From: Rhodococcoides kroppenstedtii | Lineage (GTDB): Bacteria; Actinomycetota; Actinomycetes; Mycobacteriales; Mycobacteriaceae | Reading direction: 5' to 3' | Assembly (NCBI RefSeq): GCF_900111805.1 | Contig: NZ_FOJN01000010.1 | Span: 62,001 to 126,000, forward strand | Length of the DNA: 64,000 nucleotides | Shown: positions 41,238 to 49,884 of the stretch, in pieces | Layout of the letters: each line of letters begins with the position of its first letter | How positions within the stretch are numbered: position 1 is the stretch's first letter | Notes under the pieces: generated by a model | Database searches by the model: none | The model's input: the letters and a program-made list of their open reading frames with translations, nothing else | Told to the model about the DNA's origin: nothing | Made by a program: the position numbers and the translations under genes

Positions 41238-41350
41238 TCCGGCCTGCATCCGTCCTCTGGGACTGACAACGGGAGCCCGGGTTTGCCGATGCACGTCGTA
41301 CCCCTGTGCCACGGTGGTTCCGAGCACCAACCGAGTCTGAAGGAGTGTCG

Positions 41351-43789
41351 GTGACCGAACCCGTAGTGGACAGGCCGTTGACGGACGATGTGCTCGAGGC
41401 CATCGACGCCGACACCGATCTGGCGGATGCCGCCAAGTATCTGGTGATGGCGGCACTGGAGGGCGACGACGCCCTGGCCGGGCTCCTCGACGGGACGTCC
41501 ATACCGCAACCGAGAACACCGTCGGACGTCGAGGCAGCGGAGCCGGTGGGGGCCTTCCTGACCTCGATCAGCGTCGCGGGTTTTCGCGGGATCGGGCCGA
41601 AAGCCGTCTTGAACCTGCATCCGGCACCGGGAATCACGGTCGTCAGCGGGCGCAACGGCTCCGGTAAGTCCAGCTTCGCCGAGGCACTCGAGTACGCCGT
41701 CACGGGGAAGAGCTACCGCTGGGAGAACAAGGCCAAGCTCTGGCGGGATTCCTGGCGCAATCTGCATCAGGCGACCCCGTGCGAGGTTCGGGTCGGTCTC
41801 ACCGTCGAGGGGGCCGAGCCCACCGTCGTCGGGGTGGACTGGGCCGACGACGCGCAGCTCACCGATTCGGTCACCTGGACACAGCAGGGAAAAGGCAAGC
41901 GCCGCAGTGGCACCGACGACCTCGGGTGGAACGCCGCAGTCGAACTGCACCGGCCCATCCTGTCCTACGACGAGATCGGGGGACTGGTCGAGGACAGTCC
42001 CTCCGCGTTGTACGACGCGCTGGCCACCCTCCTCGGCCTCGAGGAGATAACGGACGCCGAGAAGCGCCTCGCCGCAGCACTCAAGGCGGCGAAGGTGCCA
42101 CGGTCCGAGGCGTCCGCCGGCTTGCGTGAACTCAGAGCACTGGTCGCGGACATCGACGACGATCGCGCCCGGTCGGCGGCCACCCTGCTCAAGAAGCGAG
42201 CCCCGGACCTCGACGCGCTGCTCGCCCTGGCCAGCGGTACCGACAACGCCGGGGCACAATCGCTTTCGGGTCTTCGGGCGATGGCGGAGCTGTCCGTCCC
42301 CGAGCCGGCGCGAGCGGAGTCGGTCGCGACGATGCTGCAGGCGGCCGTCACTGCCGCCGTCGATGGCGCTGACGACTTGTCTGCCGCCGTCGCACGGCGC
42401 CACGACGTCGTCGAGGCCGCGCTTGCGCTGCACGACGAATCCGGCGACGGGCCCTGCCCGGTCTGTGGTGTCGGGGAACTCGACGCGGCCTGGGCAACGC
42501 GCACGCGGACCGCGTTGGCCGACGAGAACGAGGCCATGGCCGACTATCAACGTTGTCGACGAGACCTTGACGACGCCCGTCGGTCGGCTCGCGCTCTGAT
42601 AGACCAGCTCGTCGACGTCGTGGACGACGACGGCCTCGACCCGGTCGTGGTGAGCGCCTACCGCGCCGCGGTCGGTGCAGCGCGCGCCGTGCCGACGGAC
42701 GCCGCAGAACTTCCGAATCACCTCAGGTCGACCGTGCCGGCTGTCGTGGAGGCGGGGCACGCCGTGCGCGCCGCCGCCACCGCGGTTCTGACGGCACGCG
42801 AGGACCGGTGGGCCCCAGTCGCCGGTCGTATCGGGGCGTGGGTCACGCTCGAAGCCGACGCTCGGACGCGAGACGCTGACGTGGACAACCTCGACGCCGC
42901 AAAGAAGTGGATCACCTCCCACGCCGCCGATTTGCGCAATCGTCGCCTCGAACCCATCGCCGCACAGGCGCGCGAGATCTGGTCGGAGCTGCGCCAGGAG
43001 AGCAACGTCGACATCGGGTCGATCAGTCTGCAGGGCAACAACACCCGTCGAAAAGCGGTGCTCACGGGATCGGTCGACGGCGCACCGTCCGAAGCGTTGG
43101 CCGTGATGAGTCAGGGTGAACTGCATGCTCTCGCGCTCGCGCTCTTCATCCCGCGGGCGACCACGCCCACCAGTCCATTTCGCTTCATCGTGCTCGACGA
43201 CCCCATTCAGGCCATGGACCCGGCGAAGGTCGACGGGTTCGTCCGGGTGCTGTCGAGGCTCGCCGCGACGAGGCAGGTCGTGGTCTTCTCGCACGACGAC
43301 CGGTTGGCGACGGCGATTCGGCAACTCGCCGTCGACGCCCGCCTGATCGAAGTGACCAGAGCTACGGGTTCGGCGGTGACGGTGAGCGAAGCGTCGAACC
43401 CCGCGACGCGCTACGTCGACGACGTGTTCGCTCTGGTTCGAGACGAGAACGTGCCGGACGTCGTCAAGCGTCGTGCCTGTCCCGGGCTCTTCCGGTTGGC
43501 TTTGGAATCGGCTGCGCAACAAGTGTTCTACGCGGAGCAGTACAGGACCGGCGCGGGCCGCGTGGAGACCGAGAAGCGGTGGAGCGAGGCCGGTTCGACC
43601 CGGAAGCGTCTCGCCCTGGCCGCACACGGGGACGCCGAACGTGACCTCAGTGGATGGTTGTCGTGGCGAACGGAGCGTCACCCCACGTTGCGCATCGCGA
43701 ACGCCGGAACACACGGCACCGACGTCGTCGTGGATGACATGGCGGTCAAGGACCTGCGCAGCATGGTCAAGGGAATCCTGAACCCGTGA
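41351..43789 (+). CDS. Rad50/SMC-like AAA ATPase with zinc-hook motif
   Basis: 812 residues from GTG 41351, with AAGGAG seven bases upstream. Residues about 70-130 form the N-terminal ATPase half: FRGIGPKAVLNLHP and Walker A GRNGSGKSS near residue 100. Two helical arms flank CPVCG near residue 368, the place of the Rad50 zinc hook, though the arms are short. The C-terminal half has signature MSQGELHALALAL (about 585), Walker B FIVLDDPIQAMD (about 613) and VVVFSHDDRLA. About 120 more residues follow with no motif I know. Repair proteins and defence ATPases such as RloC, PrrC and Septu share this plan. Translational coupling to a HEPN-like gene favours defence. Confidence 0.82.
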   Translation: MTEPVVDRPLTDDVLEAIDADTDLADAAKYLVMAALEGDDALAGLLDGTSIPQPRTPSDVEAAEPVGAFLTSISVAGFRGIGPKAVLNLHPAPGITVVSGRNGSGKSSFAEALEYAVTGKSYRWENKAKLWRDSWRNLHQATPCEVRVGLTVEGAEPTVVGVDWADDAQLTDSVTWTQQGKGKRRSGTDDLGWNAAVELHRPILSYDEIGGLVEDSPSALYDALATLLGLEEITDAEKRLAAALKAAKVPRSEASAGLRELRALVADIDDDRARSAATLLKKRAPDLDALLALASGTDNAGAQSLSGLRAMAELSVPEPARAESVATMLQAAVTAAVDGADDLSAAVARRHDVVEAALALHDESGDGPCPVCGVGELDAAWATRTRTALADENEAMADYQRCRRDLDDARRSARALIDQLVDVVDDDGLDPVVVSAYRAAVGAARAVPTDAAELPNHLRSTVPAVVEAGHAVRAAATAVLTAREDRWAPVAGRIGAWVTLEADARTRDADVDNLDAAKKWITSHAADLRNRRLEPIAAQAREIWSELRQESNVDIGSISLQGNNTRRKAVLTGSVDGAPSEALAVMSQGELHALALALFIPRATTPTSPFRFIVLDDPIQAMDPAKVDGFVRVLSRLAATRQVVVFSHDDRLATAIRQLAVDARLIEVTRATGSAVTVSEASNPATRYVDDVFALVRDENVPDVVKRRACPGLFRLALESAAQQVFYAEQYRTGAGRVETEKRWSEAGSTRKRLALAAHGDAERDLSGWLSWRTERHPTLRIANAGTHGTDVVVDDMAVKDLRSMVKGILNP

Positions 43790-44136
43790 CCACCCAGCCG
43801 GCCCTGTCGCTCGCCCACGCCGAGCGACTTCTCGACAGCAGCGGTGTCGCGACGCCGCACTCCGCCCGTCTGGCGGCGGTGTTGGCGCGCCAGGCGTTGG
43901 AGGAACTGGTGTCCACCCGGTGCGCGGAACTGGGCGTCGCGGTTCCCGACGCGACGATGCGGTCGAAGCTCGTCATTCTGCGCGCTCTCGACTCGCAGGA
44001 TCGTGCCGACGCGGCCGCTCTGGCCTGGAACCGACTCAGCAGCGTGTGCCATCACCACGCCTTCGAACTGTCGCCGACCGTCGTCGAGGTTCGTCACCTC
44101 TGTGCGGCGGTCGCGACGCTGCTGAAAGGCCCCTAG
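43786..44136 (+). CDS. small HEPN-like protein coupled to the Rad50-like ATPase
   Basis: 116 residues from GTG 43786, overlapping the ATPase stop (GTGA), so the two are made together. All-helical; LARQALEELVSTRCAELG and the later NRLSSVCHHHAFE resemble HEPN domains. Arg83 and His89-His91 fit the R-x4-6-H motif of HEPN ribonucleases. If active it would be an RNA-cutting effector held or triggered by the ATPase, as the HEPN nuclease domain is in RloC and PrrC. The assignment is by motif and helical pattern only; an inactive HEPN-fold adaptor is the alternative. Confidence 0.65.
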   Translation: MTTQPALSLAHAERLLDSSGVATPHSARLAAVLARQALEELVSTRCAELGVAVPDATMRSKLVILRALDSQDRADAAALAWNRLSSVCHHHAFELSPTVVEVRHLCAAVATLLKGP

Positions 44137-44172: not shown

Positions 44173-45399
44173 TCAGGAACTCAGGTCGTCGCACCGCTGA
44201 CGTATGACACGGGCCATCCGTGCTGCTGTCTTGTCGTCGAAGCCGATCGCGCGGAGGCCGTCCACAGCGGCACGGACCCCGTGTACGACGTCGTCGAGAA
44301 CTCTCCCTGCTGCTTTGGTCGGGATGAGGTGCCGGGCCGCACCGTCCAGGACGTGCCGGCGATTCCAACGGTTGTTGCGCCCGTAGAAAGTGAGAGCCAT
44401 CGGGTCGTCCCACCCCATGTAAGGCTGCGTGCACAGCAGGTCGTAGGCAGGAGTGACTTCCCAGTGCCCGCGAGGGTGTCGGCGAACGGAGTAGTTCTTT
44501 CCGTGCAGATCACCGTTTCCGATGGCGTACGAGTAGACGGTCAGCCTCAGTAAGTCGAGCGTGGCCGCGCGAGCGGAACCGCCGCCGCGCTCGACGACGG
44601 ACGACAACGAGTCGAACACCGTCTCGCTCTTCATTCGATACTTCGCCGAGGGATACAGGGCGTTGATCTGGCATGCGTCTTCCTGCGCCAGCGCGGAATC
44701 TCCGTCCCGGTCGAATCGCTGGACGAGCAGTCCGGTGACTCCGCGGTCGTCGGTGATCATCTGTGTCCGCGGAACGGTCAACCCGCACGTCTCGGCGACC
44801 GTCATGAAGAAGTGTTCGTTCTCCACCAAACGCGGAAATCTGTTGGTAGGAGCGAGTTTCAGGATCGCTGCACCGCGTGTGGTCGACACGGGGGACGTGT
44901 GCATCTGAGCCGACACTTTGCCCTGCACCCCCGGCAGGCTTGCTCGATCGACGGTGACGGACTCGGGCCCGGACAATCTGTCGAAGAGGGCGCGAAGGTC
45001 GGGGACACGGTCATTGGGGTCGATGGTGCCGCTCCGCGTGGTCAGACCGGTCGATTGCGGTACGACCCGAACGTCGCCGACGGTGTCGGAACCGACCGCG
45101 AGGAGGATGGTGAGGTGATCGTCCTCGGACGTTTTCATTCCGGCGACGATGCCGGACAGGCGAATCCCCTCGGGGAGAAGGCCGGCGAAGAACGGGGGCA
45201 CACTGCCTGCACCCGCACTCAGCTGGGTGATCGTTTTCGGGATGGTCCATGCGACGGCGTCCGTGTTCGGGTCGTCTCGGTAGGCGTCGTCGTACGAGAA
45301 CACGACGTCGTCACCCGATCGGGCCAAGGTGCCGGCAAGAACGCCACCTTTGTAGACGTCGGCGCTGGCAACGTGCCGGAGGTCGACCTGCGCGGTCAT
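44173..45399 (-). CDS. hipA: HipA-family serine/threonine kinase toxin
   Basis: 408 residues from ATG 45399. N-terminal HipA domain (ADVYKGGVLAGTLAR, PFFAGLLPEG) then the kinase-like domain: ILKLAPTNRFPRLVENEHF, catalytic loop GNGDLHGKNYSV and metal-binding PAYDLLCT. The activation-loop region PGVQGKVSAQ also fits. HipA toxins phosphorylate tRNA synthetases or other targets and stop growth; the target here is unknown. The start overlaps the hipB stop (ATGA). Convergent with the HEPN-like gene, 36 bases apart. Confidence 0.87.
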   Translation of the reverse strand: MTAQVDLRHVASADVYKGGVLAGTLARSGDDVVFSYDDAYRDDPNTDAVAWTIPKTITQLSAGAGSVPPFFAGLLPEGIRLSGIVAGMKTSEDDHLTILLAVGSDTVGDVRVVPQSTGLTTRSGTIDPNDRVPDLRALFDRLSGPESVTVDRASLPGVQGKVSAQMHTSPVSTTRGAAILKLAPTNRFPRLVENEHFFMTVAETCGLTVPRTQMITDDRGVTGLLVQRFDRDGDSALAQEDACQINALYPSAKYRMKSETVFDSLSSVVERGGGSARAATLDLLRLTVYSYAIGNGDLHGKNYSVRRHPRGHWEVTPAYDLLCTQPYMGWDDPMALTFYGRNNRWNRRHVLDGAARHLIPTKAAGRVLDDVVHGVRAAVDGLRAIGFDDKTAARMARVIRQRCDDLSS

Positions 45400-45653
45400 G
45401 GGTTCCGGCCGTCGACGACAGTGCCGGCGCGCGTCATGAGGACCAGGTCGCACCCCAACGCGTCGGCAATGGCTTGGACGCCGTCGATCTGGGCGGAGTC
45501 CTTGCCACCCTCCACGGCCTGAACGGTCGACCGGCCGACCCCCGCCAGCAGGGCGAGCTCAGATTGAGTCAACCCGAGCTGGAGACGTCGGGCTACGAAC
45601 GAGCGCGCGAGCGGTGGGTTGTCCGGGCGTCGCGATCGGCGGGGTGTCGCCAT
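45396..45653 (-). CDS. hipB: HipB-type antitoxin, XRE family
   Basis: 85 residues from ATG 45653, with an AGGGGGA site upstream. A Cro/C1-type helix-turn-helix (LGLTQSELALLAGVGRSTVQAVEGGK) follows a basic tail (TPRRSRRPDNPP). It should neutralise HipA and repress the pair by binding inverted repeats around the promoter described separately. The C-terminal tail DLVLMTRAGTVVDGRNP completes the small domain. Confidence 0.85.
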   Translation of the reverse strand: MATPRRSRRPDNPPLARSFVARRLQLGLTQSELALLAGVGRSTVQAVEGGKDSAQIDGVQAIADALGCDLVLMTRAGTVVDGRNP

Positions 45654-45664
45654 GGGTCCCCCTG

Positions 45665-45743
45665 TGCTTGCGTTCGGAAGCGTTGGAAGGAATGTACGGC
45701 GTCGATCTCTGTCATTCAAGGCTTAAGCTTGCTGACGCAAGCA
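45665..45743 (-). promoter_or_regulatory. hipBA promoter with inverted operator half-sites
   Basis: Read on the minus strand, TTGAAT (45719-45714) and TACATT (45696-45691) are 17 bases apart, a near-textbook sigma-70 type promoter. TGCTTGCGTT at 45665 and GACGCAAGCA at 45734 are inverse copies flanking it, and GCTTGC-TGAC-GCAAGC is a local palindrome at 45727-45742. These fit autoregulation by HipB. Confidence 0.6.
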
Positions 45744-46976: not shown

Positions 46977-47125
46977 CGGCGCCCTCGATCCGCCCCGCCC
47001 ATCCGTCCATCACCGTCGCGATGCTGCCGCCGGACGGCTCGCGATACGCCGACGGGGACAAGTCTCCGACAACCCTGAGCAAGGCCCGCGGCTCTCTCCC
47101 GCGCCCCCGTCGTGGTTGCATGGAA

Positions 47126-47205
47126 CTCGACACGGGGTGCCGGGCGGCCGGCTGAGAACACACCCGTCGAACCTGACCGGGTCATGCCGGCGGAGGGATG
47201 TCGAG
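47126..47205 (+). ncRNA. TPP riboswitch
   Basis: The thiamine pyrophosphate aptamer core is clear: ACGGGGTGCC, GGCTGAGAACACACCC, GAACCTGACCGGGTCATGCC and GGAGGGATG. The outer stem pairs CTCGACA (47126-47132) with TGTCGAG (47199-47205), whose last base touches the ATG at 47206. GGAGGG inside the core is also the only Shine-Dalgarno candidate for the gene, so ligand binding would hide it directly. Translational repression by TPP is expected; no separate expression platform is seen. Confidence 0.9.
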
Positions 47206-47976
47206 ATGGCGACAGCGATCGCTGATCAGGTGGTGCTCGTGACCGGTGGCGCTCGCGGCCTGGGTGCGTCGATCAGTCGGGCGTTCATTGCCGAGGGTGC
47301 CCGCGTGGTCGTGAACTACCGTCGCAGCGCGGAGTCGGCACGGGCGTTGGTCAGCGAATTCGGGGCTGACCGGACGTTCGCCGCGCGGGCTGACGTCACC
47401 GTCGACAACGACGTCGTCGACATGGTCGAGGCGGCACGGGAGCACTTCGACTCGCCGGTCACGACCGTCGTCAACAACGCTCTCGTCGACTTCGTGTTCG
47501 ACGGCGATGCCCGCGCCTCGGTGGAGACCATCGAGTGGGACGCGTTCGACCAGCAGTTCAGGGGTTCGGTCGCCGGCGCGCTCAACACGACCAAGGCCGT
47601 GCTGGCAGGTATGAGAGAGGCCGGATTCGGCCGAATCGTCACCATCGGAACGAATCTCGTGCAGAACCCCGTCGTCCCATACCACGATTACACGGCTGCG
47701 AAGGCGGCCCTGTTGGCACTCACGCGCACGCTCTCCGCCGATCTCGGTCCCGACGGGATCACCGTGAACATGGTGTCCGGCGGCCTTCTCCGAACGACGG
47801 ACGCCAGCGCCGCCACCCCCTCTGCCGTGTTCGACATGATAGGCGAGAGCACCCCGCTGCGCCGGGTGACGACGCCGGCCGAGTTCGCCGACGCCGTCCT
47901 GTTCTTCGCCTCACCGTGGGCGCGGGCGGTGACCGGTCAGAACCTCGTCGTCGACGGCGGGTTGGTCAAGGATTGA
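47206..47976 (+). CDS. short-chain dehydrogenase/reductase under TPP riboswitch
   Basis: 256 residues from ATG 47206. Classical SDR: VLVTGGARGLGASI cofactor motif, VVVNYRRSAES (NADP-type basic residues), NNALVDF replacing the usual NNAG, IGTNLV with a Thr-Asn where the catalytic Ser is normally expected, and YHDYTAAKAAL for the Tyr-x3-Lys. GPDGITVNMVSGGL is typical of FabG-like members. The riboswitch ties it to thiamine supply, so a role in thiamine or precursor metabolism is likely; an SDR with THI-element control has been called oarX, but identity with that family is not verified here. Confidence 0.82.
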   Translation: MATAIADQVVLVTGGARGLGASISRAFIAEGARVVVNYRRSAESARALVSEFGADRTFAARADVTVDNDVVDMVEAAREHFDSPVTTVVNNALVDFVFDGDARASVETIEWDAFDQQFRGSVAGALNTTKAVLAGMREAGFGRIVTIGTNLVQNPVVPYHDYTAAKAALLALTRTLSADLGPDGITVNMVSGGLLRTTDASAATPSAVFDMIGESTPLRRVTTPAEFADAVLFFASPWARAVTGQNLVVDGGLVKD

Positions 47977-48135
47977 CGCCTCGGCCCGATCTCCGACACG
48001 CGAAGTGCTGAGCGGTCCACAGCGCGGCCGAGATCGCGCGTGACTTGACTGCGCTGTTCCAGCGAGCAGTTCCACTGACGTAGGTTCAGCCGAACCCGAA
48101 GGTTCGGTCCGTTTCCGTGCGAGAGTGGTCGCGTG

Positions 48136-49884
48136 ATGTTCAGAACGCCGGCGGCCAGCCCCGATCGTTGGGTGGTGGTCGACGTCGAGACGTCCGGCCT
48201 GAAGGCGCACCGGGACCGCGTCCTCAGCGTCGCGGCGATCACGTTGGACGACGACGGCAGGGTGGGCCAGGAACTGTCCACCCTGATCGACCCGGGGTGC
48301 GATCCCGGTCCTGTTCACATCCACGGTCTGACGAGGGAGCGTCTGCGTGGAGCGCCGCGTTTCGACGAGGTGGCGCCGCACCTGATGACCCTGCTCGCCG
48401 GCCGCACCATGGTGGCGCACAACGCCAGTTTCGATCACGGGTTCCTCCACCGTGAACACCTCCGTGCCAAGGTGACGATGCCGACGGAACACCGGTTGTG
48501 CACCCTCGCTCTGTCCCGTCGGTTGCAGCCCGATCTCGAGAATCACACGCTGTCCACGCTGGCGCGGAGGTGGAAGATTCGGCAGTCTCGGGCCCACGAC
48601 GCGTACGACGACGCACGCGTACTTGCCCAGATCTTTACGCACAGTGCGCGATTGGCGCGCTCGCTCGATCTACCGTTACCCGTGGTCGCCTGCACCGAAC
48701 GCATATCGGTCTACCCCGACTCCATCCCGCGAACTCCATGCCCGTGGCGGAATCCCGGTCCGTTGGACCCGACGGTCGGCCTGGTGCAGGGCATGCGCGT
48801 GGTCATCAGTGGCGACACCCGTGTTCCGCGTCTCCGACTCGCCGAACAACTCACCGCCGCCGGCCTCGACGTGATGAACTCGGTCAGTCGCTACACCAGT
48901 GTCGTGGTCTGTTCGGATCCGTCGTCGGACAGCGTCAAGGTGCGTCGAGCCCGTGAACACGGACTCCAGGTGGTCTCCGAACAGCGAATCCTCGATCTCG
49001 TCCGCACAATTCGGCCCGGCACGCCGAAGGCGGAGCGGACACCGGCGGTCGTCGTCGCACCGAAGCCGACACCTATCGTCGGTCCGTGGGCTAACCGCCG
49101 CGTCCTGGTGATGGGCGGAACGCACGGTGAGGCCGTTGTGATGCGTTCGCGTCTCGTGCAACTCGGCGCGCGTCCTGCCGTCAACCTCCACGCGAGCGTC
49201 TCGGCGGTGTTGATCCTCGACGGCGGTGACGGGGATCCGAGAATGCCACGCGTCGTCGAGCGGGGTCTGACGGTTCTCGCTGCCGACGACGTCGATCGCG
49301 CCCTGAACCTGGACGTCCCCGCCGCGGCACCGCTGACCCCGCGCGAGGCCGAGACGACTTATGCGCCACAGCTTTCACGCGGGGCCGTCATCGACCTCGA
49401 GGCGTCGAGCACCGCGTTCACCATCGACGCCTCGTGGAACGCGTCGGGCCCGACGCTGCCGGTCGACGTGGTGGCGTTCCTGCTCACCCGAGACGAAGTG
49501 GTGTCCGAGGACGAGGATTTCGTGTTCTACAACGCCCCCGCAACGTCCGACGGTGCCGTCGCTCTGACGGTCGACGGCGATCGCGAGCAGGGTGTGCGTC
49601 TCGACCTCGCGCTGGTGCCCGACGACATCGAGCGCATCGTGGTCGCCGCCGCGGTTGACGGCGAGAACACGTTCGGCGACGTCGGTGCGGTGTCCCTGTC
49701 GGTCGCGGGTCCCGAAAGATCGATTGCCACAGCCGTTCTCGATGCGGCGACCACGGAGCGGACCCTGCTGCTTACGGAGGTGTACCGCCGGGGGACCGGT
49801 TGGCGCCTCCGTGCGATCGGACAGGGTTACGACGACGGCTTGGGCGCGTTGGCCGTCCGGTACGGCGTGGAGGTCGACGACTGA
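48136..49884 (+). CDS. DEDDh exonuclease - BRCT - TerD fusion protein
   Basis: 582 residues from ATG 48136 (GTG 48133 also possible). Residues 1-175 are a DnaQ-like 3'-5' exonuclease with VVDVETSGL (DxE), HNASFDHGFL and HDAYDDARV, the full DEDDh set. Residues about 215-290 form a BRCT domain (VQGMRVVISGD ... ERGLQ-like region ending SEQRILDLV), and a second BRCT-like unit starts RRVLVMGGTHGE. The last 160 residues are a TerD domain: FTIDASWNASGPTLPVDV, DEDFVFYNAP, and the DDIERIVVAAAVDGE segment with calcium-binding acidic residues. It probably links DNA damage processing with the tellurite/stress-type TerD system. No ter neighbours are present. Confidence 0.87.
   Translation: MFRTPAASPDRWVVVDVETSGLKAHRDRVLSVAAITLDDDGRVGQELSTLIDPGCDPGPVHIHGLTRERLRGAPRFDEVAPHLMTLLAGRTMVAHNASFDHGFLHREHLRAKVTMPTEHRLCTLALSRRLQPDLENHTLSTLARRWKIRQSRAHDAYDDARVLAQIFTHSARLARSLDLPLPVVACTERISVYPDSIPRTPCPWRNPGPLDPTVGLVQGMRVVISGDTRVPRLRLAEQLTAAGLDVMNSVSRYTSVVVCSDPSSDSVKVRRAREHGLQVVSEQRILDLVRTIRPGTPKAERTPAVVVAPKPTPIVGPWANRRVLVMGGTHGEAVVMRSRLVQLGARPAVNLHASVSAVLILDGGDGDPRMPRVVERGLTVLAADDVDRALNLDVPAAAPLTPREAETTYAPQLSRGAVIDLEASSTAFTIDASWNASGPTLPVDVVAFLLTRDEVVSEDEDFVFYNAPATSDGAVALTVDGDREQGVRLDLALVPDDIERIVVAAAVDGENTFGDVGAVSLSVAGPERSIATAVLDAATTERTLLLTEVYRRGTGWRLRAIGQGYDDGLGALAVRYGVEVDD

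Follow-up and report, generated by a model that had tools for sequence, protein, structure and literature searches.

THI elements that overlap ribosome sites in actinobacteria were reportedly described early on by Rodionov et al. in 2002, who are also said to have given the name oarX to a THI-regulated reductase. A literature search on oarX, covering few subscription papers, showed nothing on bacteria among the matches listed, and one on TPP together with SDR or monooxygenase, of the same coverage, showed nothing on the pair among its listed matches. The closest systems described at the transcript level are the TPP leaders of Corynebacterium glutamicum, four of which, out of five, end at the aptamer according to RNA-seq (PMC3890552, Table 2). 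The 5'-UTRs of thiC, thiM, thiE and cg1227 terminate close to the end of the Rfam match, from 9 nt short of it to 1 nt past it, and the ribosome binding site can be sequestered, at least partly, in all 13 leaders folded by the authors (PMC3890552). The leader of cg0825 is of the extended type, with a 5'-UTR ending 57 nt beyond the match. This gene, reported in 2013 with an observed transcript, encodes a putative short-chain oxidoreductase, for which a role in thiamine metabolism is a guess that its authors call "attractive to speculate" (PMC3890552). The combination of a TPP riboswitch with a short-chain oxidoreductase is, in C. glutamicum, already known and has been in print since that year.

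The locus studied here lies in a stretch of 64,000 nucleotides, hereafter the window, whose features are collected in Table 1. A TPP riboswitch upstream of an SDR gene had been proposed by a sequence-only reading of this DNA, and the Rfam family RF00059 confirms it: the match is full length (model positions 1 to 105) and scores 69.2 bits against a gathering threshold of 54.3 (E = 1.6e-11). No other Rfam family matches within the 64-kb window at the gathering threshold. With this E-value, and with the motif preceding the SDR in all 30 loci from the window's genus, the aptamer is more than a chance resemblance.

Table 1. Features of the riboswitch-SDR locus (window coordinates).
Feature	Position	Strand	Basis or remark
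TPP riboswitch aptamer	47123..47215	+	RF00059 match; the last 10 positions are coding sequence
P1 5' strand CUCGACA	47126..47132	+	Sequence and listed pairs
Shine-Dalgarno GGAGGG	47192..47197	+	In the aptamer core: 3' strand of P4 and adjoining core bases; 8 nt upstream of the ATG
P1 3' strand UGUCGAG	47199..47205	+	Sequence; outer pairs poorly conserved
SDR oxidoreductase gene, 256 aa	47206..47976	+	NCBIfam NF006393 (PRK08642), 418.6 bits against a curated cut-off of 292

As in the cg0825 system, a TPP riboswitch stands before a short-chain oxidoreductase, but the start codon in the window lies inside the Rfam match, whereas the cg0825 leader runs 57 nt past it (PMC3890552). The leader is compact and ends at the aptamer, like those of thiC, thiM, thiE and cg1227; the genes behind those four, however, are thi genes and one for an ABC transporter, not an SDR (PMC3890552). 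The other two TPP leaders of the window's own genome likewise have the start codon inside the Rfam match. Together with the C. glutamicum leaders, they make the compact layout ordinary for its group. Both of these riboswitches (L002:1501-1601 and L003:1501-1623) were missed at the gathering threshold, which their scores of 52.8 and 52.6 bits just fail to reach, yet they precede a TenA-family gene and thiO.

By minimum free energy the leader does not stand out from shuffled sequences (z-score -0.29), and the evidence for its structure therefore comes from the covariance model and from a comparison of 12 compact leaders, of which 11 precede the SDR and the twelfth belongs to the TenA-family gene in the window's genome. 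Pairing holds in 91.4% of the cells of the structure drawn for this set. Both partners are changed in 16 cells, P3 and P5 accounting for 10 of these, and none of 500 shuffles gives as many. Two of the five pair measures are weak against the shuffles, namely double-change pairs (20 of 500) and further pair types (281 of 500). The inner four pairs of P1 form in all 11 rows that have letters there. The outer three, which in the window extend the helix to 7 bp and bring its 3' strand against the ATG, form in 8, 4 and 3 of the 11 rows. The contact between stem and start codon, which had been read correctly from the sequence, is therefore a local detail. The feature that the compact leaders share, as judged from their sequences, is a Shine-Dalgarno sequence in P4.

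In the window, the 3' strand of the Rfam helix P4 comprises positions 47193-47196, of which 47194-47196 pair with 47172-47174 and the end pair 47175-47193 is a G-G mismatch. GGAGGG, the sole good Shine-Dalgarno sequence seen for the ATG, falls mostly on this strand. The earlier claims that the ribosome site is embedded in the aptamer core and that the leader has no separate expression platform both hold, the latter by the sequence, in which P1 abuts the ATG. A ribosome binding site built into the aptamer is also found in the direct-occlusion riboswitches SAM-II and preQ1-I, although the aptamer is a different one and the review that treats them places TPP riboswitches under strand exchange (PMC10907184). 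Twelve of the 50 motif-positive loci, among the best 80 of at least 552 homologous loci, have compact leaders with GGAGGG or GAAGGG 8-10 nt before the start. A core base is G in 8 of the 12 compact leaders and in 1 of the 38 others, the exception (L024) being ambiguous because an in-frame ATG immediately follows the aptamer there as well. Tuning of this base towards a better ribosome site was considered and given no weight, most compact rows belonging to one clade.

Because the Shine-Dalgarno sequence overlaps the aptamer and a separate platform is missing, competition between TPP and the ribosome would be the natural model of control. In folds of the leader alone, the Shine-Dalgarno bases are unpaired with probabilities of 0.31 to 0.85. 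Forcing P4 costs about 0.5 kcal/mol, a rough figure as the G-G position was included, and freeing the six Shine-Dalgarno bases costs about 1.8 kcal/mol, so that in this calculation the ligand could tip the balance between P4 and a free ribosome site. When TPP is plentiful, the aptamer would close, P4 and the core holding GGAGGG would be locked, and ribosomes would not start at the ATG; when TPP is scarce, the site would be open often enough for translation. A riboswitch acting through strand exchange or Rho-dependent termination is an improbable alternative. It would agree with the 2024 review cited above for the placement of TPP riboswitches (PMC10907184) and with the many extended relatives in which, read by eye, a downstream segment could pair with GGCGAAGG. 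In the window, by contrast, P1 abuts the ATG, and the leader (47123-47225 considered) therefore offers no downstream segment for a separate platform. Direct occlusion of the ribosome site remains our preferred reading, and the compact leader offers an uncomplicated way to ask whether ribosomes can be blocked by a TPP aptamer by itself.

The association between riboswitch and SDR was followed in the best 80 of at least 552 confirmed homologous loci. A first motif pattern was positive in 53 of the 80, with two false hits (L047, L081) and one garbled sequence (L068). A stricter pattern places the aptamer motif upstream of the SDR in 50 of the 80; it misses L075, whose aptamer lies near the contig start, and L037 has almost no upstream sequence. 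Rfam finds the TPP riboswitch directly upstream in 35 of 55 scanned loci picked from the same 80: 13 of 14, 13 of 15 and 9 of 13 in three sets (42 loci, chosen largely for carrying the motif) and 0 of 13 in the loci chosen as motif-negative. On the SDR side of L068 and L075 there is no passing Rfam match. Of 151 genomes from another genus of the same family, probably Corynebacterium, 18 carry a gene scoring above the NF006393 cut-off, with the aptamer directly upstream at 15 of the 18 loci. A set of 14 control genomes contains such a member in C. glutamicum alone, and we infer it to be cg0825.

TPP-linked SDR genes are spread over Actinomycetota and Pseudomonadota, as seen in the Rfam-scanned loci and on a tree of 95 rows. 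The TPP label changes 10 times on this tree, against 26.8 times in shuffles, near-copies contributing to the clustering. A few labels were assigned manually: TPP for L075 and the plasmid loci, thiMED for L127 (later confirmed), and "no" for L053, although TPP precedes its thiMED run. A third phylum, Bacillota, would have been added by L062, titled Sporosarcina, and was dropped. This sequence is 10.8 kb long at 66% G+C, its SDR groups with those of Cryobacterium and Arthrobacter on the tree, and it is probably a contamination of that assembly; only two phyla are therefore claimed. Two phyla and the 2013 report of cg0825 mean that TPP control of an SDR is not a one-off. As a side observation, a Guanidine-III riboswitch lies about 1 kb upstream of the TPP-controlled SDR of a Dietzia locus (L059:3705-3771).

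The neighbouring genes of these relatives are informative. In 39 of the best 80 of at least 552 loci, the SDR gene is followed, on its own strand, by one for an NtaA/DmoA-type flavin monooxygenase; 33 of these 39 are among the 50 with the aptamer motif. The two monooxygenase proteins scanned belong to TIGR03860, and solved relatives include YtnJ, NtaA, DszA and riboflavin lyase, among them nitrilotriacetate and EDTA monooxygenases. The nitrilotriacetate and EDTA monooxygenases and riboflavin lyase cleave C-N bonds oxidatively. Within the window's genus, 24 of 30 loci have the monooxygenase after the SDR, but it is absent next to the SDR in the window's own clade. A member of the monooxygenase family encoded at another site in the window's genome (L088, 46% identical) has different neighbours and was not accepted as the missing partner.

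A sodium:solute symporter is encoded on the opposite strand in 16 of the best 80 loci, and a TPP riboswitch precedes it in all 13 of these that were scanned with Rfam. ThiV, which probably imports HMP in SAR11, belongs to the same broad symporter family (PMC11452348). Plasmid homologues (7 of 16 matches examined) also show a link to salvage genes. Four alphaproteobacterial loci, from Gemmobacter, Neorhizobium and two Rhizobium (L122, L125, L127, L157), have the order TPP-thiM-thiE-thiD-SDR, two (L123, L124) have TPP-SDR-monooxygenase, and the Caballeronia locus L126 has neither. In Arthrobacter sp. H14 (L053) the order is TPP-thiM-thiE-thiD-SDR-monooxygenase, the last match being in two pieces, and the Arthrobacter loci L067 and L072 have a neighbouring thiMED run on the opposite strand, under a TPP riboswitch of its own. 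The TPP-led thiMED runs of L125, L127 and L157 resemble the rhizobial plasmid thiMED salvage genes and continue into the SDR, which the available portions of the papers on those genes do not mention; unlike these runs, the SDR in the window stands alone (PMC2434198, PMC3898782). TPP control and linkage to salvage genes thus recur among the relatives, with no such neighbour beside the window's SDR. We judge it rather likely that the SDR is part of a thiamin-precursor salvage regulon and that its translation is repressed through the compact TPP riboswitch.

The SDR itself is the only one of 39 matches in its genome to exceed the NF006393 cut-off (Table 1). It carries the marks of a classical SDR, with TGGARGLG at residues 13-20 (TGxxxGxG) and Y162 and K166 of the YxxxK motif, each in 118 of 118 rows. 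The classical catalytic Ser about 13 residues before the Tyr is replaced by Thr149, which keeps the hydroxyl; the position is T in 116 and S in 2 of 118 relatives, and faces a Ser of 2ew8 in an alignment read by eye. TNL and NNAL had been singled out as anomalies in the sequence-only reading. Both motifs are present, but they are not anomalous: like SGGLLRTTDAS, they are invariant or nearly so among the 118 relatives and constitute family signatures, which rules them out as marks of a degenerate SDR. The AlphaFold model (mean pLDDT 78.7) has a classical SDR fold, and a fold search returned FabG, borneol dehydrogenases and others tied at Z of about 28, that is, a generic SDR whose fold names no substrate.

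Since NCBIfam labels NF006393 as a 3-oxoacyl-ACP reductase and the fold is about equally like FabG and other SDRs, the enzyme might be an ordinary 3-oxoacyl-ACP or general carbonyl reductase, with a TPP control unrelated to thiamin chemistry and owed, for instance, to TPP enzymes in fatty-acid or branched-chain metabolism. Aptamer motif and adjacent monooxygenase are both lacking in 24 of the best 80 of at least 552 loci, 17 of them Lysobacteraceae by title, so that thiamin may not be the only context of the family. We nevertheless hold this explanation to be unlikely. Both the riboswitch and the thi neighbours are found repeatedly across two phyla, the thiM, thiE, thiD runs among them; the active-site segment TNLxQNPVVPYHDYT is nearly invariant among the 118 relatives; and the family profile finds no solved structure at 1e-40, the best single-sequence match being 1.9e-30. 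A role in thiamin-precursor salvage is the reading we favour, and we regard it as probable. The question raised at the outset, what an SDR does in thiamine metabolism, was well founded, as the neighbourhoods of the relatives point to precursor salvage. The riboswitch serves here as a pointer to an enzyme family that is recurrently linked to TPP riboswitches in two or more phyla, is tied to salvage genes and bears a borrowed name, and it is this recurrent, probable salvage function of the SDR family, rather than the riboswitch, that is worth following.

The thiamin genes of the host bear on which precursor is involved. Among the matches listed, its nearest named relative is Rhodococcoides corynebacterioides (97%). 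In the own genome thiE, thiO and thiD exceed the NCBIfam cut-offs and thiG is recognised by Pfam. One TPP riboswitch leads the TenA-family gene (Pfam; below the NCBIfam salvage_TenA cut-off), followed by genes for an NMT1/THI5-like protein and an ABC transporter, and the remaining one precedes thiO-thiG. No thiC was found in this genome by a search that was positive in 13 of 14 controls. With thiO and thiG present and thiC missing, the organism should make thiazole and need pyrimidine. In the genus, thiC is found in 0 of 37 genomes, whereas the SDR occurs in 36 and the thiM family in 37 of the 37; a genus-wide pyrimidine auxotrophy is predicted from these gene contents. Across the family, 78 of 101 sampled genomes have thiC, against the 0 of 37 in the window's genus.

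In the family sample, thiC is lacking in 11 of 26 genomes with the SDR and in 12 of 75 others (p = 0.013), with G311 counted as lacking thiC since it is missing from the listed matches and G288, which has a short thiC fragment with a stop, counted as having it. Without the window's genus the link is not significant (5 of 20 against 12 of 75, p = 0.34). Among 43 genomes picked from the 80 loci, taken without completeness figures and including some metagenome bins, thiC is lacking in 9 of 28 TPP-linked genomes, the doubtful L062 being one of the nine, and in 0 of 15 without a direct TPP riboswitch (p = 0.017). Loss of thiC as the sole explanation of the SDR was rejected, most of the signal coming from one genus. 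A genus that lacks thiC and keeps the SDR in nearly every genome is a clean genetic system for a substrate search.

A tentative proposal for the substrate, to which we give a low probability, is the aldehyde of the thiamin pyrimidine. The SDR would reduce this aldehyde, or a comparable damaged precursor, to HMP, the alcohol that the cell can use and that would then feed ThiD; in many relatives, the NtaA-type flavin monooxygenase would produce the aldehyde by oxidative cleavage. The corresponding salvage route, itself of low probability, would be an undescribed one: the monooxygenase would oxidatively free an aldehyde of the pyrimidine from damaged thiamin or from an alkylated precursor, the SDR would convert it to HMP, with or without the monooxygenase, and lineages without thiC, such as the window's genus, would depend on it. 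If true, such salvage of damaged thiamin adds a step to the bacterial recovery of vitamin B1. The SDR might instead act on the thiazole half, that is, on hydroxyethylthiazole, its aldehyde or its acid, which would suit the linkage to thiM, the hydroxyethylthiazole kinase, and the presence of the thiM family throughout the genus. We think this improbable as well, for the own genome, with thiO and thiG and no thiC, should be short of pyrimidine, and the opposite-strand symporter resembles, at the family level, the likely HMP importer ThiV (PMC11452348). Being present in all 37 genomes, thiM was of no help in separating thiazole from pyrimidine salvage.

The window contains further genes of separate interest. 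Just downstream of the SDR, one long frame (48133-49884) combines exonuclease (RNase_T), BRCT and TerD domains according to Pfam. On the minus strand, 44173-45719 encodes a helix-turn-helix protein followed by a HipA-like protein (Pfam), likely a HipBA-type pair. The region 41306-44136 holds a gene for an 827-residue SMC/AAA ATPase, and a 116-residue frame overlaps its end by 4 bases.
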